The translations under genes and the position numbers were made by a program. The notes under the pieces are model-generated. The model had not been told where the DNA came from. It saw only the letters and a program-made list of their open reading frames with translations, and did not search any database. From NCBI RefSeq assembly GCF_014647375.1, contig NZ_BMPB01000001.1, positions 620,001-684,000 of the forward strand: 64,000 nucleotides of DNA, given 5' to 3'. This document shows, one piece after another, positions 7,418 to 18,970 of the stretch. Origin of the DNA: Parabacteroides faecis (GTDB lineage: Bacteria > Bacteroidota > Bacteroidia > Bacteroidales > Tannerellaceae). Each line of letters begins with the position of its first letter. The first letter of the stretch is position 1.

Positions 7418-8857
7418 ATGAAAGATTCAAGTTTTAGAGAAGGTGATGCCAAAACCGCGATTTTTGGCTCTAATGCGATGTTGCATCCGGCTCCGGTAGA
7501 TGTAATCCCCGATGGTCCTACTACTCCGGAAATTGCCTATCAGATGGTAAAAGACGAAACTTTCGCTCAGACACAACCCCGTCTGAACCTGGCTACATTC
7601 GTTACTACCTGGATGGATGATTATGCAACGAAGTTGATGAACGAAGCAATCAACATCAACTATATCGACGAAACTGAGTATCCGCGTATCGCTGTGATGA
7701 ATGCGAAATGTATCAATATCATGGCCAACCTGTGGAACAGCCCCGAACAGGCGCAATGGAAAGCCGGTGCATTGGCGATCGGTTCTTCCGAAGCATGTAT
7801 GTTGGGTGGTGTTGCCGCCTGGTTGCGTTGGCGTGAAAGAAGATTGGCCCAGGGTAAACCGGTCGACAAACCTAACTTCGTTATCTCTGCCGGTTTCCAG
7901 GTTGTATGGGAAAAGTTTGCTCAGTTGTGGCAGATCGAAATGCGCCAGGTACCTTTGACACAGGAACATATTACTCTCGACCCGCAGGATGCCCTGAAGA
8001 TGTGTGACGAAAATACAATCTGTATCGTTCCTATCCAGGGTGTTACATGGACAGGTCTGAACGATGATGTGGAAGCTTTGGACGCTGCCCTCGATGCCTA
8101 TAATGCAAAGACAGGCTACGATATTCCTATCCATGTGGATGCAGCTTCCGGTGGTTTCATCCTGCCATTCCTGAAACCGGAGGTTAAATGGGACTTCCGC
8201 CTGAAATGGGTACTTTCCATCAGTACTTCCGGACATAAGTTCGGATTGGTATATCCGGGTTTAGGCTGGGTAGTATGGAAAGACAAGAAATACCTGCCGG
8301 GTTCCATGTCTTTCAGTGTAAATTATTTAGGTGCAAACATCACTCAGGTCGGTTTGAACTTCTCTCGTCCTGCAGCTCAGATCCTGGGACAATACTATCA
8401 GTTCATCCGTCTCGGATTCCAGGGTTACAAGGAAGTGCAGCAGAACAGTATGGCTGTAGCCGATTACCTGCATGCTGAGATCGGCAAGATGGCTCCGTTC
8501 CAGAACTACAGCAAAGAAGTGGTAAACCCTTTGTTTATCTGGTATCTGAAACCGGAATATGCTAAATCGGCCAAATGGACATTATACGATTTGCAGGATA
8601 AACTGAAACAGAGCGGATGGATGGTTCCGGCATATACATTGCCTGAAAACCTTGAAAACTGGGTTGTTATGCGTATCGTTGTCCGTCAGGGATTCAGCCG
8701 CGACATGGCAGACCAATTACTGGGTGATATCAACAACGCGATCGTTGATCTGGAAAAACTGGAATATCCGACGCCGACCCGTATCGCACAGGACAGAAAC
8801 CAGAAAGTAAAAGGTTCTGTATTCACTCACACAGGTATTCCAAAATCAACTAAGTAA
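7418..8857 (+). CDS. gadB: glutamate decarboxylase
   Basis: Pyridoxal-phosphate enzyme converting glutamate to GABA and CO2 while consuming a cytoplasmic proton; with glutaminase and the antiporter it forms the glutamate-dependent acid-resistance system. The protein has 479 residues. The PLP lysine is K274 in SISTSGHKFGLVYPG (SxxASGHKFG in the family); the cofactor-binding aspartate lies in HVDAASGGFILPF, and the N-terminal third carries GSSEACMLGG. The C-terminus ends with VFTHTG near its tail, resembling the HT tail used for pH-dependent autoinhibition in Escherichia coli GadB. Length and motifs are complete. It is followed 11 nt later by glsA, so the two form an operon. Confidence 0.96.
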   Translation: MKDSSFREGDAKTAIFGSNAMLHPAPVDVIPDGPTTPEIAYQMVKDETFAQTQPRLNLATFVTTWMDDYATKLMNEAININYIDETEYPRIAVMNAKCINIMANLWNSPEQAQWKAGALAIGSSEACMLGGVAAWLRWRERRLAQGKPVDKPNFVISAGFQVVWEKFAQLWQIEMRQVPLTQEHITLDPQDALKMCDENTICIVPIQGVTWTGLNDDVEALDAALDAYNAKTGYDIPIHVDAASGGFILPFLKPEVKWDFRLKWVLSISTSGHKFGLVYPGLGWVVWKDKKYLPGSMSFSVNYLGANITQVGLNFSRPAAQILGQYYQFIRLGFQGYKEVQQNSMAVADYLHAEIGKMAPFQNYSKEVVNPLFIWYLKPEYAKSAKWTLYDLQDKLKQSGWMVPAYTLPENLENWVVMRIVVRQGFSRDMADQLLGDINNAIVDLEKLEYPTPTRIAQDRNQKVKGSVFTHTGIPKSTK

Positions 8858-8868
8858 GCTGTTTGAAT

Positions 8869-9834
8869 ATGGATAAAAAGATTTCCGTTTCGCAAATAAA
8901 GGAAGCAGCTCAGGAGGCCTATGAGATGTACAAAAGCAACACGGATGGAAAGAATGCCGATTATATCCCTTATCTGGCTAATATAGATAAGAACCTGTTC
9001 GGTATCAGCATCTGTCTGTTGGACGGAAGTATCATCCAGCTGGGCGATTCCGAATACCGCTTCGGTATCGAATCTGTGTCGAAGGTACATACCGCTGTGT
9101 TGGCTTTGCGCCAGTACGGGGCACAGAAACTTCTTCAAATGATCGGGGCCGATGCAACCGGACTGCCGTTCAACTCTATCATGGCTATCCTGCTGGAAAA
9201 GGATCATCCGTCTACTCCGCTGGTGAATGCCGGTGCGATCACTGCTTGTAGTATGGTACAGCCGGTAGGTGATTCCAATAAAAAATGGGAGGCGATCGTC
9301 TCCAATATCACCGATCTTTGCGGCAGCGCGCCTCAACTGATCGACGAACTGTATAAATCGGAATCGGCTACCAATTTCAACAACCGCTCGATTGCCTGGT
9401 TGCTGAAGAACTACAACCGTATCTATGACGATCCGGATATGTCGCTCGACCTGTATACCCGTCAGTGTTCATTGGGAATCACAGCCGCTCAATTATCTAT
9501 CTGCGGTGCCACGATTGCCAACGACGGTCTGAATCCGGTATCCAAAAAGCAAATATTCGAGGCATCCTTGTCACCGAAGATCACTTCCCTGATCGCTACC
9601 GTAGGTTTCTACGAACATACAGGTGACTGGTTGTACACTTCCGGCATCCCTGCAAAGACAGGTGTAGGTGGTGGTGTAATGGGCGTGATGCCCGGCCTGT
9701 TCGGTATAGCTGCTTTTGCCCCTCCAATTGACAGTGCAGGTAACTCTGTAAAAGCACAATTGGCTATCAAGTATATAATGAATAAACTGGGTCTGTCTAT
9801 TTTTAACGGCGACCGGGTTACAATAACTGAATAA
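8869..9834 (+). CDS. glsA: glutaminase A
   Basis: Serine-dependent glutaminase (beta-lactamase-like fold) hydrolysing glutamine to glutamate plus ammonia. This feeds GadB and also neutralises acid directly. It has 321 residues from ATG 8869; a TTG six bases upstream is not credible as the start. The catalytic Ser-x-x-Lys is S69-V-S-K72 in FGIESVSKVHTAVL. Other family blocks are NAGAITACSM, FNNRSIAWLLKNYNRIYDDP, LYTRQCSLGI and the C-terminal PAKTGVGGGVMGVMPGLFGI. It is coupled to gadB (11-nt gap) and followed by a terminator, which closes this operon before the inserted recombinase region. Confidence 0.95.
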   Translation: MDKKISVSQIKEAAQEAYEMYKSNTDGKNADYIPYLANIDKNLFGISICLLDGSIIQLGDSEYRFGIESVSKVHTAVLALRQYGAQKLLQMIGADATGLPFNSIMAILLEKDHPSTPLVNAGAITACSMVQPVGDSNKKWEAIVSNITDLCGSAPQLIDELYKSESATNFNNRSIAWLLKNYNRIYDDPDMSLDLYTRQCSLGITAAQLSICGATIANDGLNPVSKKQIFEASLSPKITSLIATVGFYEHTGDWLYTSGIPAKTGVGGGVMGVMPGLFGIAAFAPPIDSAGNSVKAQLAIKYIMNKLGLSIFNGDRVTITE

Positions 9835-9908: not shown

Positions 9909-10417
9909 CTATAAATGATTCAGTATATCTTTTATATCTAATTGTAGTCGGGAGAAAGCAAACCATTTTTTACCTAAATCCTTTAATGAAGCACCTATAT
10001 GATAAAGTTCTTTTTCATCGATAATTAGGAAACTTCCATACGATCCATTCTCTGGTTAATGGAATATCCTTTCAATAAATAACTTCGAAGTACTTGGGTA
10101 GCCCACTGGCGAAATGCGGTTGCATTCTTGGAGTTGACTCTGTAACCAACGGAAATAATTGCATCCAGATTATAAATCTTGGTTACATAATTCTTTCCAT
10201 CTTGAGCAGTTAGTTCCACTTTGGAACTAACTGAATTTTTATCCAGTTCACCACTGTTGAAAATGTTCTGTAGATGCTTTGTTATTGCTTGTCGTTTGGT
10301 GCCGAACAATTCGGCAATCTGAGCCTGTGTCAACCAGACTGTTTCATTCTGTAGTCTGACTTCTAACCGTAAAGCGGATTGGGATTGATAAATGATGATT
10401 TCATCTTTGCTTTCCAT
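9909..10417 (-). pseudogene. RhuM-type virulence/ORF6N-like protein, internally deleted remnant
   Basis: The N-terminal 130 codons (from ATG 10417) read as the DNA-binding half of a RhuM-family protein: SQSALRLEVRLQNETVWLTQ, AQIAELFGTKRQAITKHLQN and LDAIISVGYRVNSKNATAFR. The frame stops at 10025. Immediately behind, in another frame (10031 down to the TAG at 9909-9911), 40 codons read FLIIDEKELYHIGASLKDLG followed by KKWFAFSRLQ, which I recognise as the C-terminal end of long members of the same family. About half of the usual 320-340 residues is missing between the two parts and the join is out of frame, so this is a deletion-derived pseudogene. The first part could still make a truncated DNA-binding protein. 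A TACTTTTG -7 box at 10449-10456 lies upstream. Confidence 0.75.
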
Positions 10418-10542: not shown

Positions 10543-11478
10543 ATGCTTATGACAACAACCTTCTTCACCTATGTCGATACATTGGTGAAACGTAAACGCA
10601 AGGCTGGCAAATATTCAACTGCCGACCTTTACCGTGCTTCTTCCAACTGGTTGCTGCGGTTCTGCGGAACTGCCGATCTGTCGTTCGACGACATTACCCC
10701 TGGTATGATAGACCGTTTTTGTGACTGGCTCCTGGCGCTGGGGCATCTGAAAACGAACTCGGTAAACAGCTATCTCAGCAGTTTCCGGGCTATCTATCAT
10801 ACTGCAGTTCGTGAAGAATTGGTCCCTGTCAATCGTCTCTCGCCTTTCGCACATCTCAACCTGCGGCAGGAGGAAACAGCCAAACGGGCCCTTCGTATCC
10901 AGGCAATGGAAGAGATCGCCCGGATGGATCTCTCAGTCGAGCCGGAGTTACAGGCTGCCAGGGATTTCGCGCTTTTCTCCTTTCTTGCCTGTGGTATGCC
11001 GTTTGTCGACCTGGCTCATCTTACACACGACAATATCGTCGGTGATGAGTTGGTATATAACCGGTGTAAGACGAATGTCCTGGTACGTGTCGGTATCACT
11101 CCCGGTATGCGGCGGCTGCTCGACAAATATGCGTTGACTGGTAACCGTTATCTTTTTCCTGTATTGCTGGAAGAGGCAGACGGTGAACGATTACACGAGG
11201 TTTATAAACAAGCGCTGCACCGCTATAACGGTTGTCTGGTGGAGATAGGGAGTCGTCTCTCTATCCCGGTTTACCTTACCTCGTATGTTTTCCGGCATAC
11301 CTGGGCGACAGAGGCTCTGCGAAATGATACCCCGGTGGCCGTCATCAGCCAGGCACTCGGGCATACTTCCGAGAGAACGACGCGCCACTATCTGGCAGCT
11401 CTCGATCAATCAAGACTCAATTCGGCAAATGAGGTTATTACAAAAGGATTGGATGTCCTGATAGGAGTGAGGGCGTAA
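10543..11478 (+). CDS. tyrosine recombinase (DNA invertase/integrase family)
   Basis: Site-specific recombinase of about 311 residues. The start is taken at ATG 10543; a second ATG at 10549 is equally good, while upstream in-frame codons lack support. An N-terminal SAM-like core-binding domain (YSTADLYRASSNWLLRFCGT; NSVNSYLSSFRAIYHTAVRE) precedes the catalytic domain: Lys in NRCKTNVLV, box II LTSYVFRHTWATEAL with the conserved Arg-His, ALGHTSERTTRHYLAALD with the histidine and nucleophilic Tyr. The box I position that is often RGM in this group reads CGMPFVDLAHL. The size and box II form (S replacing H before the Arg) resemble the small Bacteroidetes recombinases that invert promoters. The stop codon lies inside the left 26-bp inverted repeat, and the invertible segment follows directly. 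Confidence 0.9.
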   Translation: MLMTTTFFTYVDTLVKRKRKAGKYSTADLYRASSNWLLRFCGTADLSFDDITPGMIDRFCDWLLALGHLKTNSVNSYLSSFRAIYHTAVREELVPVNRLSPFAHLNLRQEETAKRALRIQAMEEIARMDLSVEPELQAARDFALFSFLACGMPFVDLAHLTHDNIVGDELVYNRCKTNVLVRVGITPGMRRLLDKYALTGNRYLFPVLLEEADGERLHEVYKQALHRYNGCLVEIGSRLSIPVYLTSYVFRHTWATEALRNDTPVAVISQALGHTSERTTRHYLAALDQSRLNSANEVITKGLDVLIGVRA

Positions 11479-11500
11479 CCTTATTTGTGAAATAAGGTAT
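11475..11500 (+). repeat. left inverted repeat (IR-L), predicted recombination site
   Basis: A 26-bp sequence from GTAACC to GGTAT that recurs exactly, in inverted orientation, at 11893-11918. Inside it are 9-bp mirror arms ACCTTATTT and AAATAAGGT around a GTG centre, the layout of a tyrosine-recombinase core site. It includes the TAA stop of the recombinase gene at its outer edge, so inversion would leave that gene intact. Confidence 0.85.
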
Positions 11501-11892
11501 TTTGCCCCGTTTTATACAAGCTGTGAAAAACAAAGTTTATACTAATGTGGGAACAGGGCAAATATAGGAATTTTATTTAGACAAAGACAAACATATCTGC
11601 TTATTATTAGGTGGGTAGGGGATGATTTAGATTAAAAGATGAAATTCATACGTTTTTCATGAGTTATGGGCATAGTAAGGCGGAGGGTATCTTTTCCTTT
11701 CTTGAGAGGGGGCAGTGGGTGTGTTAATACTCTAAATAAAGACTATCCAGATAGAAAATCACAGATAAAACAGTTAAATATCCGCGTCAATCTATGTAGT
11801 TCGTGCTTTTGTACAGCAATTTACACACCCCCTATCCCCTCTCAAGAGGGGAGGAAGTTACTCTCTGTATATGATAATCGTAAGATAAACTG
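11501..11892. other. predicted invertible promoter segment (392 bp)
   Basis: AT-rich noncoding DNA between perfect 26-bp inverted repeats, right behind a tyrosine recombinase and ahead of the DUF4469/secreted-protein genes. It holds a promoter on the minus strand (11559-11591) and an imperfect internal inverted repeat (about 11683-11727 against 11820-11866). No TAnnTTTG promoter was found on the plus strand, so in this orientation the genes to the right appear to lack a promoter. Reversal would place the promoter about 130 nt ahead of ATG 11970. This is a prediction from sequence; no evidence of the other orientation is available here. Confidence 0.7.
11559..11591 (-). promoter_or_regulatory. 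promoter inside the invertible segment, facing the recombinase
   Basis: On the minus strand TTTG (11588-11591), a 21-nt spacer and TATATTTG (11559-11566) match the Bacteroides primary-sigma consensus TTTG-N19-21-TAnnTTTG. A transcript would start near 11552 and run leftwards, antisense to the recombinase 3' end. In the inverted orientation it would start near 11841 and read into the DUF4469 gene. Confidence 0.65.
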
Positions 11893-11918
11893 ATACCTTA
11901 TTTCACAAATAAGGTTAC
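11893..11918 (-). repeat. right inverted repeat (IR-R), predicted recombination site
   Basis: Exact reverse complement of the 26 bp at 11475-11500, with CAC at the centre instead of GTG, so the two sites are in inverse orientation and recombination would invert rather than delete. Confidence 0.85.
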
Positions 11919-11969: not shown

Positions 11970-12728
11970 ATGGCTGAAAAAATTATTTTGACTGCCGATC
12001 TTTACGACAACGCCGTCACGGAGCGAAAAGGCGATTACACAGCGAAGCCCCGTATTACAGGAACAGTACGAAACCATCAGATTGCCGAACGCATCCTGGC
12101 AAGAGGTTCTGAATTACGTCTGGATACAATCGAGTATATCCTGGGTATGAGTGATCAGGAAAAGGTAACTGCTATTGCCGAAGGTAAAAGTGTTGTTGAC
12201 GGTGTAGGCCAGTACATGGCTACTATTACCGGTTCCTTTGAAGGTGAAAAAGCTGCTTTCGACCCTGCTAAAAACATACTCACCGCCAGTTATGTCCCCG
12301 GCAAACTACTGCGTGACACATTGAAAAATGTGGAGATAGATACTCGTACGGCTGTCACTGGCCCGGTCATCAACTCGATTATTGACTCTACAACCGGTGA
12401 AATGAATACCCAACTCACTTCTGCTGCCCCTGCTGTTATCAGTGGGTCCAATATCAAAGTGGCCGGTGACGATGCGGGTATAGGTGTTTTCTTTACAAAA
12501 ACCGGTGGTACGGCACAGAAATGTTCATTGCTGATCCATAACAATCCTTCGGAACTGACTGTTATGATGCCTGCTCTTGAAGACGGCGAATACACGTTGA
12601 GCATCATTACCCAATCGGCTGCGGGTAACAAGCTCGTAAAAGAACCGCGCACTTATACCTTCCCGGTATTGCTTTATGTGGGTAACAAACCGAGTGGTGG
12701 AGGAGGAGACCGTCCTGAAATCGAGTAA
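11970..12728 (+). CDS. HU-like DNA-binding/DUF4469 domain protein
   Basis: About 252 residues from ATG 11970 (MAEKIILTADLYDNAVTERK); the in-frame TTG at 11937 is rejected as start. The N-terminal half (GDYTAKPRITGTVRNHQIAE, RILARGSELRLDTIEYIL) fits the HU/IHF-like fold found in Bacteroidales proteins of this type; the C-terminal half (SNIKVAGDDAGIGVFFTKTG, SELTVMMPALEDGEYTLSII) fits DUF4469, an Ig-like module. A Gly-rich, acidic tail (GGGGDRPEIE) ends it. It has no signal peptide, so a nucleoid or DNA-structural role is plausible but unproven. It is the first gene after the invertible segment and is probably expressed only when the promoter is flipped. Confidence 0.75.
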   Translation: MAEKIILTADLYDNAVTERKGDYTAKPRITGTVRNHQIAERILARGSELRLDTIEYILGMSDQEKVTAIAEGKSVVDGVGQYMATITGSFEGEKAAFDPAKNILTASYVPGKLLRDTLKNVEIDTRTAVTGPVINSIIDSTTGEMNTQLTSAAPAVISGSNIKVAGDDAGIGVFFTKTGGTAQKCSLLIHNNPSELTVMMPALEDGEYTLSIITQSAAGNKLVKEPRTYTFPVLLYVGNKPSGGGGDRPEIE

Positions 12729-12739
12729 TACTATCCGAT

Positions 12740-12821
12740 CAACGTTGGTTAGACCGATTAACCAATGGCAGAGACACTGTCTAACCGGAGGCAGTTAAGA
12801 CTTCTAACCAACGTTGGTTAG
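12740..12821. promoter_or_regulatory. cluster of CTAACC/GGTTAG half-sites with an 18-bp palindrome
   Basis: The perfect palindrome CTAACCAACGTTGGTTAG lies at 12804-12821. CAACGTTGGTTAG is repeated directly at 12740-12752, and another CTAACC lies at 12781-12786. The array fills the spacer between the DUF4469 gene and the secreted-protein gene, and could be an operator for a dimeric DNA-binding protein or an RNA hairpin. The rest of the spacer up to 12886 is AT-rich. Confidence 0.5.
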
Positions 12822-12886
12822 GTTATGCGCCTAAAATATGTTAAATGAAATAAAGTACTTAAATTCTAATATTTACCTATTTGCAC

Positions 12887-15800
12887 ATGAAAAAGATTAA
12901 TACAAGCCAATCTAAACTAACCACCTCTCTGATTTGGCTGGTGTTTTTGGGAGGTATTTTAATATCGCTGCCTGCTAAGGCTCAAACTACTGTGAGCGAG
13001 TTACAACAATTGATTAATGATGTTCCGGCTAAAGGGACGAAAGTTATTGATTTAGAAGGAAAAACTTACCAACAAGCCGATATGCTGGAAATTACCGGAG
13101 GTAGGAATATTACTCTAAAGAATGGTACACTTTTAAGATATAACTTTTATTCTCCCGGAACATTTGTGCATGTGATGGATAGTTATTTGACGTTAGAGTC
13201 TGTTGTTGTAGATGGCAACGAAAAAAATAAGAATACGGTAGGTCCTCTCATTAGTTTACGAAGTTCAGAACTAACAGTTAAAGCAGGAACAGTAATAACT
13301 AATAATGATATAACGAGCAAAGTAACAGCCGGAGGTGTTATGGTAGACGGAAGTTCTTCTTTTGTTATGACAGGAGGAGAAATAGGTGGCTGTTATGATT
13401 ATAACATGGGGCAAGTCTATGTTGCTAAAGGAGGGCAGTTCACAATGACTGGTGGTACCATCCGTTCTGTTTGTACCGAAGGCAATGCTACAATAGGAGG
13501 TTCAGCCAAGATTACATCTTACTTTAGACTGAATGGAGAGTATCATCTGATGCTTTCTTCTGCTTTGGAAAATGTAATTCCTGTTTGGAGAATATTGGCA
13601 AAAGAAGGTGCCATTGCTGTGACAGCTACGGATGGATACACTTTGACAACTGACGATGTTGCTAAATTCAAGGATTATCAAAATAATTGGTCTTTTGATC
13701 TAAAAGATGGCAATATTATATGTACCGAACAGTCTTCCACTGTGAACAGCGAAGACGAACTACAGAAGAAAATAGATGCGGCTCCGGTAGGAAGCACAGG
13801 CTCTCCCACCTCTATATCTATTGGAAATGTGGAAATTACGAAAGGTGTCACTATTGATGGTAAATATATTACATTGACAGGAGGGAGCATTATAGGAAAC
13901 AGCAGTAATTCCTGGATTACCCTGAAAGGAGGAGGACTTAATTTGAATCAAATAAATATAACTCGAAAAGGATCATCAAATGGTTCACCTGTATATCTCG
14001 ACAGAGGGGGACAATTGATTATCAATAATTCAATCATTGACGGCGAACGGGCTTTGGAAGGTGCTATCAATGTAGGATCCCAGTCCGGATCCATAGTAAT
14101 AAATCAGGGTACAATAAAGGGTATTATTTCCAATATGAATGCTTCATTAACCTTTAACAGTGGAAGTGCTACTACTATATTTAGCAAAGTACCGGTCAAG
14201 TTGAGTGGAAACGTGCAGATAAGTGGTGGTGTCTCATGTGAAATTATTTTGATGAGTGCCCCTCTTTACAAGTTGAAAATGGCGATATTAAACCAATCTT
14301 CCAATGTTATAGCCAGCGGTACAGGTGGTTTCATTCTGACGGAAAACTATCTTTCCATGTTTGAATGCATTGATACCGAATATAAATTGGTGTGGAAAAA
14401 CAATCAGATCCTTTATGAAAAGACAGGTGGAGAGACACCCTCTGTAATAGAGACAGAAGATGAACTGCAAAAAGCCCTTGATGCTGCATCCCCAGGTTCT
14501 GAATCTGCCCCAACGATCATACCCATCAAGAATGTGACATTGACAAAGCCTCTTACCATCGATGGTAAATATATAACCTTCAATGGAGGAAGTCTGGTAT
14601 CTTCTAACAGTTCTGCTAAGATAAACATCAAGAAAGGCGGACTTATTCTGGATAATATTTCACTCTCTGCCGGATGGAGCAGTTCCGGTAAATTCATTAC
14701 AGTAGGCAGCAATGGAACACTGGTAATTCGTTCGACAGCTACTATCAGCAGTAACTCCAAAGACTTGAATTTGATTTATATAGAAGCAGGAAGTACGTTG
14801 AAAAATGAGGGGATTATTACCGGATGCATATCGAGTAGCGGTATACTCTATTTAACCAATGGTACAATTCACGGCCAGGTGAGTTCTTTTGGCCTGTTTT
14901 ACCTGTCAGGAACAGTGAAGATAGATACCGGAGTCTATCTTTCCGGAAGTGCCGCGATAACGATGACGAGTGTTCCTAAATATCTATTGCAGATATTAAC
15001 CGACGGTGAATCATCCACTGTCGTAGTTAAAGGAGGAAGTGGTTTTGTTCTTTCTGAATCGTATTTAAATAAGTTTGTTTGTATAACGGAAAACTGGCAG
15101 TTTATCTGGAGTAACAATCAAATTTTGGTAGTAAAAATACAAAGTACGAATTATAAAGTAACCTGGAATATACCCTCCGGTGTAACAGTCAAACCGGAAA
15201 GCGGATATAATGCAACTTCTATCGTAAAAGGTGCTGATTTCAAGTTTACAATCGTCTTTCCTTCCAATAAAAAAGTAATTGTAAAGCAAGGTTCTATCGT
15301 GATAACTCCCGATGCGAATGGGGTCTATACACTTACCAACATTCAGGCAGATATAGTATTGACAATAACGTTGGAAAATAAAATAGGATATACGGTAACT
15401 CTTCCTTCTCAAACCGGTTTTGATATTAAAGCTGTTGACGGATATGACGCTTCACTTATACTGGAAGGTGCTGATTTTAAATTTAGTATCAAACCGAAAG
15501 CTGGGTATGAACAGTATATTGTAAAGGTGTTTGTCAATAATACGCTTATAACTCCTGCCGGCGGATCGGTATATACTATTGTAAATGTACATGCCAACTT
15601 GGTTGTGAGAATAGAGGTAACACCACCAGTCATTGAAGGAGTGTTCAATATTATTTGGAATGCAGATGAAGGAGCAACGTTAGTTCCGGAATCCGGCTAT
15701 GATAAGAATACAGTGAATCCAGGGGATGATTTTAAGTTCCATATTGTAACAGATGCCTTACATAAAGGTTGGGAGATACTGGTACGGGTTGACGGTATTC

Positions 15801-16348
15801 TTCTTTCTCCTGACATTTGGGGTATATATACCATATCAAACATTCGTTCGAATAAAATTATAGAGATTACTATATCTGAAGTATTTAATATAACATTCGT
15901 AAAACCGAGAGAAGATGTAAAAATGGTGGTTGAAACGGGTTATAATCCGGAAAGGGTACTGGCCGGAAATGATTTCAGATTCCGACTGGAGAGTAAGTAT
16001 AAAGCCAACCAGTTACAGGTGATAGCCAATGGAGAATTATTGATACCTATAAATTCTGTATATACTATTTACAATGTATATGAAAATAAGACTATAACTG
16101 TAACTGTCAATACTTCTGTCGGAAATGAAGATATTCATTCCGACCGGGTAGAAATAGTAATAAGGGATCATAAACTCTGCATCAAGCATCAGGAGATGAA
16201 AAATATACCTTTATATATAACTTCATTCGGAGGAAGTATCGTTAAGACAAGCCTGCTGAATGGAACCTACACTGAAATAGATATTCCTGTCAAAGGGGCA
16301 TATATTATTTTCTTTGAGGGATTCAGTCAGAAGATTGTAATAAAATAG
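12887..16348 (+). CDS. large secreted modular protein (beta-helix-like plus repeated beta-sandwich-like modules)
   Basis: A 1153-residue exported protein without a recognised name. The start at ATG 12887 gives a signal peptide (LIWLVFLGGILISLPAKA, cut before Q33). Residues about 36-755 hold three related modules. The second and third begin with near-identical openings (EDELQKKIDAAPVGS; EDELQKALDAASPGS) and share TIDGKYIT..GGS. The Gly/Asn-rich short strands suggest right-handed beta-helices. Residues about 755-1075 hold four repeats with the signature SGY(N/D)..., (A/G)xDFKF and Y(T)xxNxxxN/A. The last 75 residues (ending GAYIIFFEGFSQKIVIK) resemble C-terminal sorting tails of Bacteroidetes secreted proteins. 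An adhesin or surface role is inferred. Base composition is AT-richer than the GAD genes around it, consistent with acquisition. A terminator follows. Confidence 0.7.
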   Translation: MKKINTSQSKLTTSLIWLVFLGGILISLPAKAQTTVSELQQLINDVPAKGTKVIDLEGKTYQQADMLEITGGRNITLKNGTLLRYNFYSPGTFVHVMDSYLTLESVVVDGNEKNKNTVGPLISLRSSELTVKAGTVITNNDITSKVTAGGVMVDGSSSFVMTGGEIGGCYDYNMGQVYVAKGGQFTMTGGTIRSVCTEGNATIGGSAKITSYFRLNGEYHLMLSSALENVIPVWRILAKEGAIAVTATDGYTLTTDDVAKFKDYQNNWSFDLKDGNIICTEQSSTVNSEDELQKKIDAAPVGSTGSPTSISIGNVEITKGVTIDGKYITLTGGSIIGNSSNSWITLKGGGLNLNQINITRKGSSNGSPVYLDRGGQLIINNSIIDGERALEGAINVGSQSGSIVINQGTIKGIISNMNASLTFNSGSATTIFSKVPVKLSGNVQISGGVSCEIILMSAPLYKLKMAILNQSSNVIASGTGGFILTENYLSMFECIDTEYKLVWKNNQILYEKTGGETPSVIETEDELQKALDAASPGSESAPTIIPIKNVTLTKPLTIDGKYITFNGGSLVSSNSSAKINIKKGGLILDNISLSAGWSSSGKFITVGSNGTLVIRSTATISSNSKDLNLIYIEAGSTLKNEGIITGCISSSGILYLTNGTIHGQVSSFGLFYLSGTVKIDTGVYLSGSAAITMTSVPKYLLQILTDGESSTVVVKGGSGFVLSESYLNKFVCITENWQFIWSNNQILVVKIQSTNYKVTWNIPSGVTVKPESGYNATSIVKGADFKFTIVFPSNKKVIVKQGSIVITPDANGVYTLTNIQADIVLTITLENKIGYTVTLPSQTGFDIKAVDGYDASLILEGADFKFSIKPKAGYEQYIVKVFVNNTLITPAGGSVYTIVNVHANLVVRIEVTPPVIEGVFNIIWNADEGATLVPESGYDKNTVNPGDDFKFHIVTDALHKGWEILVRVDGILLSPDIWGIYTISNIRSNKIIEITISEVFNITFVKPREDVKMVVETGYNPERVLAGNDFRFRLESKYKANQLQVIANGELLIPINSVYTIYNVYENKTITVTVNTSVGNEDIHSDRVEIVIRDHKLCIKHQEMKNIPLYITSFGGSIVKTSLLNGTYTEIDIPVKGAYIIFFEGFSQKIVIK

Positions 16349-16452: not shown

Positions 16453-17217
16453 TTATTTTTCTCCTTCTGCAGGCTTTGATACCGTCTGTTGTTTCGGTTG
16501 CGGTGTATTGTCTCCATTATATAATTCATTCTTTTTTTTATTCGCATTCTGTACCAGGCTGGTTACATAAACGGTAAAGATAGGGAACATCATCATCCCC
16601 AATGCAGCCAGCAGGACCGATAATATCCTTCCTGTCGGGGTGACGGCATATATATTCGAACCGACTGTCGTCACGTCCATAAAAGCCCACCAGAGGGCGT
16701 CGTCGTAGCCGGTTACCTGCGGGTTTACCTTGTGCTCGATCACGAAGAATATCAGGCTGGAGAAATAAACCGTTGCCAGCAGCATGGTCAGATAAGAGAC
16801 GAACAAACCCGAAGCTTTGTTCGATGACAGCCAGCCCACCACGATAGCCAGCGCATAGCCGCTACGTGCCAGCGGAATGAAACGCAGGAAATAGGTGATC
16901 TCCGGAGAGAACTCGATCCCGTAATAATTAATAATATTCAGATAAGGAATGGATACGATCAGGAAGATAAAATGGCTCTGCAGATAATATAATTTACGTT
17001 TTGATAAGAAAAACTCTAAAACGAAATCGGCAATGAAGAACATACATATCCAGAATTGTATTTTCAGATATGACCCCTGCGTCATAAAGGGAATATTCTT
17101 GAATGTATCGATTGAAATTACAACAATAAGGAATAGCGAAAGTAACAAAATGACAACATGCAATACTCCGTATATTCCTCTTTTCTCATAAATAATATCA
17201 CTGAAAGCAGACTTCAT
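16453..17217 (-). CDS. potassium-channel-like ion transporter
   Basis: Membrane protein of 254 residues with the layout of a six-helix voltage-gated-like channel: S1 (VLHVVILLLSLFLIVVISID), S2 (IQFWICMFFIADFVLEFF), a positively marked S4 region (YFLRFIPLARSGYALAIVV) and an S5-pore-S6 unit. The pore reads MDVTTVGSNIYAVTPTGR at about residues 178-195. Canonical potassium channels have TVGYGD, so the filter is altered after TVG. It is the same kind of protein that accompanies glutaminase and GadC in other Bacteroidales acid-resistance loci (from memory), and may move ions to balance charge during glutamate/GABA exchange. It is divergent from gadC and convergent with the inserted secreted-protein gene. 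Confidence 0.8.
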   Translation of the reverse strand: MKSAFSDIIYEKRGIYGVLHVVILLLSLFLIVVISIDTFKNIPFMTQGSYLKIQFWICMFFIADFVLEFFLSKRKLYYLQSHFIFLIVSIPYLNIINYYGIEFSPEITYFLRFIPLARSGYALAIVVGWLSSNKASGLFVSYLTMLLATVYFSSLIFFVIEHKVNPQVTGYDDALWWAFMDVTTVGSNIYAVTPTGRILSVLLAALGMMMFPIFTVYVTSLVQNANKKKNELYNGDNTPQPKQQTVSKPAEGEK

Positions 17218-17312
17218 TGCGTTTAATATTTAGGCGTTTAGATAGAAATATTTTAGGCTATCTAACAGTAGAAAGACTGATTTTGTTTTTAACACTATTC
17301 TGTTAATTAACC

Positions 17313-17338
17313 TAGTTTGACATCTTGTTGACAAACTA
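17313..17338. promoter_or_regulatory. interrupted palindrome between the channel and gadC
   Basis: Mirror arms TAGTTTG (17313-17319) and CAAACTA (17332-17338), with partly symmetric bases between, lie midway between two divergent starts. A candidate operator; no regulator can be named. Confidence 0.35.
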
Positions 17339-17416
17339 ACACAATACCGATTTGTTTTACTGACATATTTAAAGCGAAACTAAACAAAACAAAATTCACA
17401 TTTAAACAGTAAATTC

Positions 17417-18970
17417 ATGGCAAATGTAGGAAAAGCAGTAAAACTTGGAGTTTTTACTCTTGCAATTATGAATGTTACGGCGGTAGTGTCTCTCCGCGGA
17501 CTACCAGCCGAGGCTGTATACGGATTAAGTTCAGCCTTTTATTATCTCTTTGCGGCAATTGTCTTTTTGATACCGACATCGTTGGTGGCTGCCGAGCTGG
17601 CTGCTATGTTCCAGGACAAACAAGGTGGGGTTTTTCGATGGGTAGGGGAAGCCTACGGAAAGAAGTGGGGTTTCCTTGCTATCTGGGTACAATGGATTGA
17701 AAGTACGATCTGGTATCCTACCGTATTGACTTTCGGTGCCGTTTCCATCGCCTTTATCGGAATGAACGATGCACACGACATGACTCTGGCTTCAAACAAA
17801 ATGTATACACTGGTTGTAGTGTTGATCATTTACTGGCTGGCTACCTTTATTTCACTGAAAGGATTGAGCTGGGTAGGTAAAGTTGCTAAAGTAGGCGGTA
17901 TTGTCGGGACGATCCTTCCGGCTGCCTTGCTGATTATTCTAGGAGTTGTTTACCTGTCTATGGGCGGTCATTCGAACATGGACTTCCACGGTGATTTCTT
18001 CCCGGATTTCTCTAAATTCGATAACCTGGTGCTTGCTTCCAGTATCTTCTTGTTTTATGCCGGTATGGAAATGGGTGGTATTCACGTGAAAGATGTGGAA
18101 AATCCATCCAAGAACTATCCGAAAGCTGTATTTATCGGTGCGCTGATCACTGTGATCATTTTCGTTCTGGGTACTTTCTCACTGGGTATCATCATCCCGG
18201 AAAAGGATATTAACCTGACACAGAGTTTGCTGGTTGGTTTCGATAACTATTTCAAATTCATCCATGCTTCCTGGTTATCTCCGATCATTGCGGTCGCATT
18301 GGCATTCGGTGTGCTGGCAGGTGTATTGACATGGGTTGCCGGTCCGTCAAAAGGTATCTTTACTGTTGGTAAAGCCGGTTATCTGCCTCCATTCTTCCAA
18401 AAAACAAACAAGATAGGTGTTCAGAAGAATATTCTGTTGATACAGGGACTGGCTGTTACATTCCTGAGCTTATTGTTCGTTGTAATGCCTTCCGTACAGA
18501 GTTTCTATCAGATCCTGTCGCAGTTGACCGTGATCCTTTATCTGGTTATGTACCTGCTGATGTTCTCAGGTGCAATCGCATTGCGTTACCGGATGAAAAA
18601 AGCCAATCGCCCGTTCCGTATCGGTAAACATGGTAACGGTTTGATGTGGTTTATCGGCGGTCTTGGTTTCTGTGGTTCATTACTGGCGTTTATATTAAGC
18701 TTTATTCCACCGAGTCAGATTTCTGTCGGTAGCAATACCGTTTGGTTTGCCGTATTGATCATCGGTGCTATTGTTGTCGTAGTTGCTCCGTTTATTATCT
18801 ATGCTTCTAAAAAAGCATCCTGGGTCGATCCGAATTCAGAGTTCGAACCGTTCCATTGGGAAGAAGCAAAAGTACAGGCTCCTGCAGCAGGAACTACTGC
18901 TCAGACTGCCAATACAAATAGCGCAAACGCAACAAAGAATACAACCAGTACAACAAATACACCCACGTAA
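17417..18970 (+). CDS. gadC: glutamate:GABA antiporter
   Basis: APC-superfamily exchanger of 517 residues that imports glutamate and exports GABA, completing the acid-resistance cycle with GadB. Twelve membrane helices are visible. The first carries TLAIMNVTAVVSLRGLPAEA, typical of GadC-type transporters, then QDKQGGVFRWVGEAYGKKWG and FYAGMEMGGIHVKDVENPSK. The C-terminal 30 residues are a low-complexity Ala/Thr/Asn tail (GTTAQTANTNSANATKNTTS) that may correspond to the pH-gating C-terminal plug of E. coli GadC, though its sequence is unlike it. It is separated from gadB-glsA by the recombinase insert. A terminator shared with the convergent GH106 gene follows. Confidence 0.92.
   Translation: MANVGKAVKLGVFTLAIMNVTAVVSLRGLPAEAVYGLSSAFYYLFAAIVFLIPTSLVAAELAAMFQDKQGGVFRWVGEAYGKKWGFLAIWVQWIESTIWYPTVLTFGAVSIAFIGMNDAHDMTLASNKMYTLVVVLIIYWLATFISLKGLSWVGKVAKVGGIVGTILPAALLIILGVVYLSMGGHSNMDFHGDFFPDFSKFDNLVLASSIFLFYAGMEMGGIHVKDVENPSKNYPKAVFIGALITVIIFVLGTFSLGIIIPEKDINLTQSLLVGFDNYFKFIHASWLSPIIAVALAFGVLAGVLTWVAGPSKGIFTVGKAGYLPPFFQKTNKIGVQKNILLIQGLAVTFLSLLFVVMPSVQSFYQILSQLTVILYLVMYLLMFSGAIALRYRMKKANRPFRIGKHGNGLMWFIGGLGFCGSLLAFILSFIPPSQISVGSNTVWFAVLIIGAIVVVVAPFIIYASKKASWVDPNSEFEPFHWEEAKVQAPAAGTTAQTANTNSANATKNTTSTTNTPT

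Follow-up and report, generated by a model that had tools for sequence, protein, structure and literature searches.

Among the closest described relatives of the locus considered here are the Tsr19/BF2766 switches and their kin in Bacteroides fragilis, with which it has in common a local tyrosine recombinase, inverted repeats, a promoter of the TAnnTTTG type, which is the Bacteroides -7 consensus, and surface products, predicted in the present case (PMC4747536). Phase variation is reported for capsule loci and an S-layer glycoprotein of Parabacteroides distasonis (PMC8400631). Fimbrillin genes are enriched beside invertons in Bacteroidales (PMC11892184, PMC12632263), and in B. thetaiotaomicron roughly one cell in 1,000 expresses the BT1927 S-layer when rich medium is used (PMC12548429). 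The present locus lies in Parabacteroides faecis (contig NZ_BMPB01000001.1, positions 620,001 to 684,000); the whole stretch of 64,000 nucleotides that was analysed is called the window, and coordinates are those of the window. The locus consists of a tyrosine recombinase gene, a 392-bp segment between inverted repeats and two genes downstream, the first encoding a protein with HU-DNA_bdg and DUF4469 domains (HU/DUF4469) and the second a secreted repeat protein. The exactness of the repeat arms, the presence of orthologous cassettes, a family-wide rule for the repeat sites, enrichment of a promoter box, and inversion of the segment between relatives together make it very probable that the locus is a self-contained invertible-promoter (phase-variation) switch, OFF as assembled.

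The recombinase gene (10543-11478, plus strand) encodes 311 amino acids in an intact reading frame, with matches to Pfam Phage_int_SAM_5 (1.6e-18) and Phage_integrase (1e-9), and its product is the probable invertase of the switch. The left repeat overlaps its stop codon (gene end 11478, arm start 11475). The arms, at 11475-11500 (plus strand) and 11893-11918 (minus strand), are 26 nt each, 100% complementary and 392 nt apart, and they enclose the invertible segment (11501-11892). Each comprises 9 bp, GTG and 9 bp, and the centre of the opposite arm reads CAC because the arms are inverted copies of each other. An earlier note, made from the letters of this DNA, had described the exact repeats, the inverted GTG/CAC centre and a small tyrosine recombinase immediately before the segment, and had placed a DUF4469 gene and a 1153-residue secreted protein beside it; all of these are borne out, the inversion of the centre simply following from the repeats. 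Even with as many as 3 mismatches allowed, the window has no third place that matches the 21-nt core of the arms, both strands counted (mean 0 in 100 shuffles). A scan of the whole 6.66-Mb genome for the core gave a single further match, with 3 mismatches, about 450 bp behind a paralogous recombinase (contig C23), and exact copies of the window's site are absent elsewhere in the genome. Of the features by which invertons are recognized, the window has repeats around a short intergenic segment, an adjoining site-specific recombinase gene and a Bacteroidota promoter within the segment. Also within the segment is an inner imperfect inverted repeat (11695-11852; 34 nt, 82%) around CCCCTCT..AGAGGGG, a dispersed element. 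The dispersed sequence CACACCCCCTNNCCCCTCTNNAGAGGGG, at 11824-11851, has 7 copies in the genome, against 0 for the backward control.

Orthologous cassettes with the same layout are present in three related genomes (G019, G024 and G022), and in the four genomes the cassette stands behind the same two genes. The recombinase orthologs are 74-75% identical, and the mean column identity over the four genomes is 86%. The HU/DUF4469 proteins of the three orthologs are 93, 94 and 70% identical to that of the window; the figure is 46% in L057, a locus of the sister clade (L, G and C numbers designate our loci, genomes and contigs).

The sites were compared over a wider family, consisting of 60 loci picked by score among the recombinase matches listed, mostly from the same genus, which with the window make 61; it is not a random sample. 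A repeat pair is present in 56/61 loci, in 55 of them in the CTTATT form and in L058 in a deviating form. Of the five loci without a pair, four end at a contig edge within 220 bp behind the recombinase, and L055 (38% identity) has a different repeat. The site rule was examined in 54 of the 61 loci, L055 being dropped for its other recombinase class and six more because they extend less than 600 bp behind the recombinase. Two exact CTTATT-N5-AATAAG sites, more than 80 bp apart and within 1.1 kb behind the recombinase, are found in 53/54 loci, the exception being L058. The 5-bp centres take 15 different forms across the 53 loci, yet within each locus they are inverted-identical (53/53), whereas 5000 trials in which centres were re-paired between loci yielded 8.2 matches on average and never more than 20. 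Among the six short loci, L056 and L066 likewise have matched centres. No exact sites occur farther than 1.3 kb behind the recombinases in 248,908 bp. When one mismatch is allowed, centres match in 44/53 loci (re-pairing mean 7.1, maximum 16), and the failures involve inexact chance sites. In the window, the site is CTTATT-TGTGA-AATAAG, at 11480-11496 in the left arm and, with the same centre in inverted orientation, at 11897-11913 in the right. Strand exchange by tyrosine recombinases requires a matched crossover region. Fixed arms, with centres that are free yet matched in each locus, are as would be expected of crossover sites, and because the centres match within a locus while varying between loci, CTTATT-N5-AATAAG is read as the putative crossover site. 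A third or fourth copy of the site is present in seven loci. Three paralogous cassettes of the window's own genome (L051, L052 and L054, on contigs C11, C3 and C7) have the same arms, the centre TATAT in each, and stand before similar operons; cross-talk among these three is possible.

The promoter of the segment (11559-11591, minus strand) has a -7 box, TATATTTG, at 11559-11566 and TTTG upstream at about 11582-11591, and is directed at the recombinase. The TAnnTTTG motif is kept in the three orthologs (L048, L049 and L050), and the box, which in the window is 58 bp inside the left arm, is 58-61 bp inside it across the four loci, in identical orientation. No TAnnTTTG directed at the target genes is found in the window's segment. 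With the promoter in this direction, the switch is OFF for the downstream genes in the assembly. The earlier note was right in placing a promoter in the segment, a Bacteroidota box being present, with the correction that the best promoter is on the minus strand and aims at the recombinase. Were the segment flipped, the box would sit 135 nt before the ATG of HU/DUF4469; the leader before that gene has a predicted fold no stronger than that of shuffles (z 0.03). Over the family, a recombinase-directed TAnnTTTG lies 40-100 bp inside the arm in 40/56 segments, as against a mean of 2.8 and a maximum of 7 in 200 shuffles. The putative promoter is supported by its TAnnTTTG box of the Bacteroidota type and by the conservation of that box, rather than by a sigma-70 scan, which was uninformative (6 matches against a mean of 4.1 in shuffles).

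Comparison of relatives shows inversion of the segment directly. The loci L056 and L057 come from different genomes, each with HU/DUF4469 downstream; their flanks are collinear (88.5% identity in the recombinase and 84.9% behind the right arm; the L056 contig includes just the start of the HU/DUF4469 gene), and their segments align at 83% in opposite directions across the full distance between the arms (309-604 to 604-309). The place of the promoter box puts L056 in the ON state and L057 in the OFF state. The same is seen with a fimbrial-type target in L088 and L090, whose flanks are 96-97% identical and whose segments are inverted at 82%. Over 2,076 bp, L161, which comes from a named strain of P. 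distasonis, shares 98.2% identity with L057; it has the orientation of L057 and is inverted with respect to L056. L162, from the same strain, shares 99.9% identity with L088 and is inverted with respect to L090. From these identities, the genome of L057 (G016) is taken as P. distasonis. The records of L161 and L162 (NZ_OY725766.1 and NZ_OY725758.1, P. distasonis TSDC17.2-1.1) are labelled as plasmids yet carry chromosomal-looking genes. Their switch loci match a 4.8-Mb contig of G016 almost completely, and the plasmid label looks doubtful.

The conserved cassette, the behaviour of the family's sites and the inversion, which includes a pair with the same type of target as the window, argue for the phase-variation module that the earlier note had proposed. 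In such a module, the adjoining recombinase would exchange strands between the two inverted CTTATT-TGTGA-AATAAG sites and thereby flip the 392 bp carrying one outward promoter. In the flipped state, the promoter would lie upstream of HU/DUF4469 and transcribe it, and probably also the secreted-protein gene, the two presumably being co-transcribed. It is likely that the window's recombinase is the one acting on these two sites, and the window's own copy probably still flips.

Several observations weigh against this interpretation. The loci were selected by similarity, and related rows are not independent. The box is in the ON place in just 2/56 segments while shuffles give a mean of 2.7; the ON count therefore proves nothing by itself, and both ON cases are known from pairwise alignments alone. 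A further 14/56 segments have no TAnnTTTG in either place. Comparing orientation between strains, as the earlier note advised, revealed the inverted pairs L056/L057 and L088/L090, but no inverted copy was found of the window's own locus, the window, L048, L049 and L050 all being OFF (4/4). No further strains of the window's own species were found, and in a profile search of genome contigs the recombinase alignment reached two relatives (P. goldsteinii and P. gordonii) and the single recombinase none. Finally, L149 retains a repeat pair despite a broken recombinase frame. The earlier note had held that repeats conserved in relatives without the recombinase would speak for two ordinary terminators, and L149 comes nearest to this; being one draft genome, it does not outweigh the remaining loci and the rest of the evidence. 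L149 and a second locus, L150, are cassettes in decay. In L149 a frameshift splits the recombinase, the arms are variant although their centres match, and an HU/DUF4469 gene follows. L150 has a recombinase remnant and one lone site.

The first target gene (11970-12728, plus strand) encodes a 252-aa protein with Pfam matches to HU-DNA_bdg (5e-25) and DUF4469 (3.1e-26). Among the 55 loci in which the first gene behind the switch is readable, that gene is DUF3575 (fimbrial-type) in 29, a WecA-like glycosyltransferase in 8, HU/DUF4469 in 5, small HU/IHF-like in 5, sigma-4-like helix-turn-helix in 5 and SusC in 1, the remaining 2 being other genes (by difference, assuming no overlap). Against this background, the pairing of HU/DUF4469 with a secreted protein is indeed the unusual target of which the earlier note spoke. 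A tree was built from 60 of the rows, all but L055. In it the six HU/DUF4469-linked recombinases form one group, with support of 83/86, below the starred level, and a single origin for the six is recovered in 96% of 200 bootstrap trees. DUF4469 matches occur in 29/39 genomes of the genus, and some of these show a strong expansion, with 43 matches in G020, 29 in G027, 22 in G004 and 21 in G019. A recombinase of the window's class is in the flank of 1/36 DUF4469 loci, the window's own, although some flanks end at contig edges and the 36 do not include the remaining linked loci (of G016, G017, G019, G022 and G024). DUF4469 genes are numerous, and the switch is thus attached to some among many of them. 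Of the 36 loci, 13 have no recognised open reading frame (ORF) and 6 no next ORF; in the remainder the next ORF is signal-like in 13/17, a crude measure that is not relied on. A text search of 5.39 million papers did not find the term DUF4469. At L152, a gene at the position of a DUF4469 match also belongs to a fimbrial-type operon; the recombinase before it is a longer one, and its inverted repeat is of another kind.

Between the two target genes is a spacer (12729-12886, plus strand) with the palindrome CTAACCAACGTTGGTTAG (12804-12821) and a strong hairpin, the two together at 12738-12821, conserved in the window and the three orthologs; RNA folding of 12726-12840 gives -34.1 kcal/mol (z -3.9). 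The genome has one exact occurrence of the palindrome and, on C11, a copy that differs by 1 mismatch; at up to 3 mismatches there are 4 occurrences per strand in the genome, equal to the backward control. The spacer and the first gene bear on a variant of the proposed switch in which HU/DUF4469 is part of the mechanism: the product of the ON state would bind the switch or the spacer palindrome and stabilise or reverse the state, or would tune the secreted gene. HU/IHF proteins assist other recombinases, the first gene is of HU type in 10/55 loci, and the spacer is both conserved and palindromic. However, 45/55 switches have a different first gene, and many HU/DUF4469 genes have no such recombinase beside them (a single linked locus among the 36 DUF4469 loci examined, some with short flanks). 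This variant is held to be possible but doubtful.

The second target gene (12887-16348, plus strand) encodes the 1153-aa secreted repeat protein, which has a signal-like start and no family over the cut-off in Pfam or NCBIfam. It resembles the products at L048, L049, L050, L057 and L149 only in short repeat and C-terminal stretches (22-34% over 50-174 aa), and its C-terminal part of about 130-170 aa resembles the products at the same place in L057 and L149. Among the 39 genus genomes, 23 have matches to it (own included), mostly partial, and none of the matches listed is full-length except the protein itself. Relatives thus retain the switch and HU gene but not the secreted protein, and this holds even for L057 and L161, apparently two strains of P. 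distasonis: with a difference of 1.8% in switch and HU gene, their downstream proteins are 37% identical over most of their length. The products at L048, L049 and L050 have the TIGR04183 sorting domain of the type IX secretion system (30.5, 32.3 and 32.0 bits; cut-off 23); family searches gave no match to this domain in the window's protein, whose C terminus resembles those of the L057 and L149 products, or in the L057 product, which has BspA-type repeats. These comparisons suggest that the products behind the cassette are surface or secreted proteins that diversify or get exchanged, and the window's product is probably surface-exposed. Single-sequence structure models of it are poor (mean predicted local distance difference test, pLDDT, of 54.9 and 68.0). 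A fold search with the N part gave nothing at E <=0.001 (best 2.3e-3, with many beta-helix proteins among the top matches), and the C part gave 28 matches at E <=0.001, mostly tandem immunoglobulin/fibronectin type III-like domains at a TM score of about 0.15. The models would fit a protein of beta-rich repeats, and no further conclusion is drawn from them. A secreted protein subject to on/off switching and at the same time highly variable between strains would be a candidate point of contact with phages, immunity or competitors. It is conceivable, though we would put it forward only tentatively, that the locus is a phase-variable slot, in which a conserved head (recombinase, barcoded sites, promoter and HU/DUF4469) is followed by exchanged or diversified secreted proteins, HU/DUF4469 acting on the switch or the palindrome and so coupling the state of the switch to expression of the cargo. 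In that case, because each locus has its own 5-bp centre, many paralogous switches could be present in one genome with limited cross-talk.

The locus could also be a true switch that is locked, the window's copy flipping no longer or too rarely and its target being silent. The uniform OFF state of the window and its three orthologs, and the excess of OFF (40/56) over ON (2) in the family, would fit such a history, as would the catalytic residues of the recombinase. Across the 61 aligned rows, the nucleophile Tyr (60/61), the box-II Arg (61/61) and the Lys (61/61) are conserved. However, in the column that we take to be Arg I, assigned by its motif, the residue is replaced in 61/61 rows (Pro 50, Ala 7, Thr 3, Ser 1; Pro in the window), and HxxR is YxxR in 61/61. 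Alignment to a solved relative, XerA, is limited to box II and part of the N-terminal domain. The replacement need not mean lost activity, because the CTnDOT integrase is likewise without Arg I and uses another Arg (PMC8138268); moreover, the change is in every row, including both pairs seen inverted. The intact and conserved frame of the window's recombinase, the exactness of its arms over 26 bp, and the conservation of promoter and target also argue against a locked state. A locked switch is thus unlikely.

The earlier note had itself named two ordinary terminators as the alternative, and more generally the repeats could be transcription terminators or attenuator hairpins around an intergenic region. 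Each arm does fold as an RNA hairpin (-7.3 and -10.2 kcal/mol), and L149 has kept its pair with a broken recombinase, but 0 terminator-like sites were found where 1.2 are expected, nothing requires two terminators to be identical copies, or their loops to match within a locus and differ between loci (53/53), and arm-to-arm inversion between relatives would not arise. With these counts, the terminator reading was rejected as very improbable. That the segment is instead a mobile or excisable element, with the recombinase as its integrase and the repeats as its ends, is scarcely credible: the protein is of the integrase family, it has relatives in phage records (at most 40% identity among the matches listed) and in plasmid records (at most 52%, likewise) and the segment contains a dispersed repeat, but the recombinase gene is outside the segment, inverted sites give inversion rather than excision, and four genomes have the cassette behind the same two genes. 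The plasmid record with 52% identity is from P. distasonis and chromosomal-looking; a pattern search of viral contigs and a search of plasmid DNA each gave 0.

The invertible-promoter cassette is inside a glutamate-dependent acid-resistance cluster (7418-9834 and 16453-18970), with glutamate decarboxylase and glutaminase on one side and an ion channel and the GadC antiporter on the other. Similar ORFs are in matching order at L048. A short RhuM-family gene on the minus strand (10025-10417) is directly upstream of the recombinase.

The switch is best placed by setting it beside the known systems. It differs from Mpi-type switches, which have a serine recombinase, in that its enzyme belongs to the Phage_integrase family. 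The capsule loci of P. distasonis start with UpxY and the window's locus with HU-DNA_bdg + DUF4469; the phase-variable loci of that species have in common with it the genus, phase variation, a tyrosine recombinase (at the capsule loci) and a surface protein. What is new here is limited by the earlier description, reportedly by Fletcher in 2007, of phase variation at capsule loci and in an S-layer glycoprotein of P. distasonis. As to fimbrial (type V pilus) switches, paralogs of the window's cassette before DUF3575/DUF3868/Mfa have related recombinases and obey the same site rule; unlike in those switches, no pilin genes are directly behind the window's switch. A literature search by site sequence gave nothing relevant, but published inverton motifs are in supplements that were not read, so the site is not claimed to be unpublished. 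The rule of CTTATT-N5-AATAAG with matched centres offers a simple means to find such switches and to probe their cross-talk. Extra copies of the site in seven loci recall the multiple repeats of the B. fragilis extracellular polysaccharide switch (PMC4747536). In B. fragilis, BF2766 also acts on a distant promoter (PMC4747536), whereas the window's site has no further exact copy in its genome. The BT1927 switch is like the window's in having an invertible promoter before a surface-protein gene, the product being an S-layer lipoprotein in BT1927 and a predicted surface protein here. The HU/DUF4469 gene with its variable secreted protein would add a class of target for promoter switches of gut Bacteroidales. 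The window thus has a switch of a kind known in Bacteroidales, with an uncommon and variable target.
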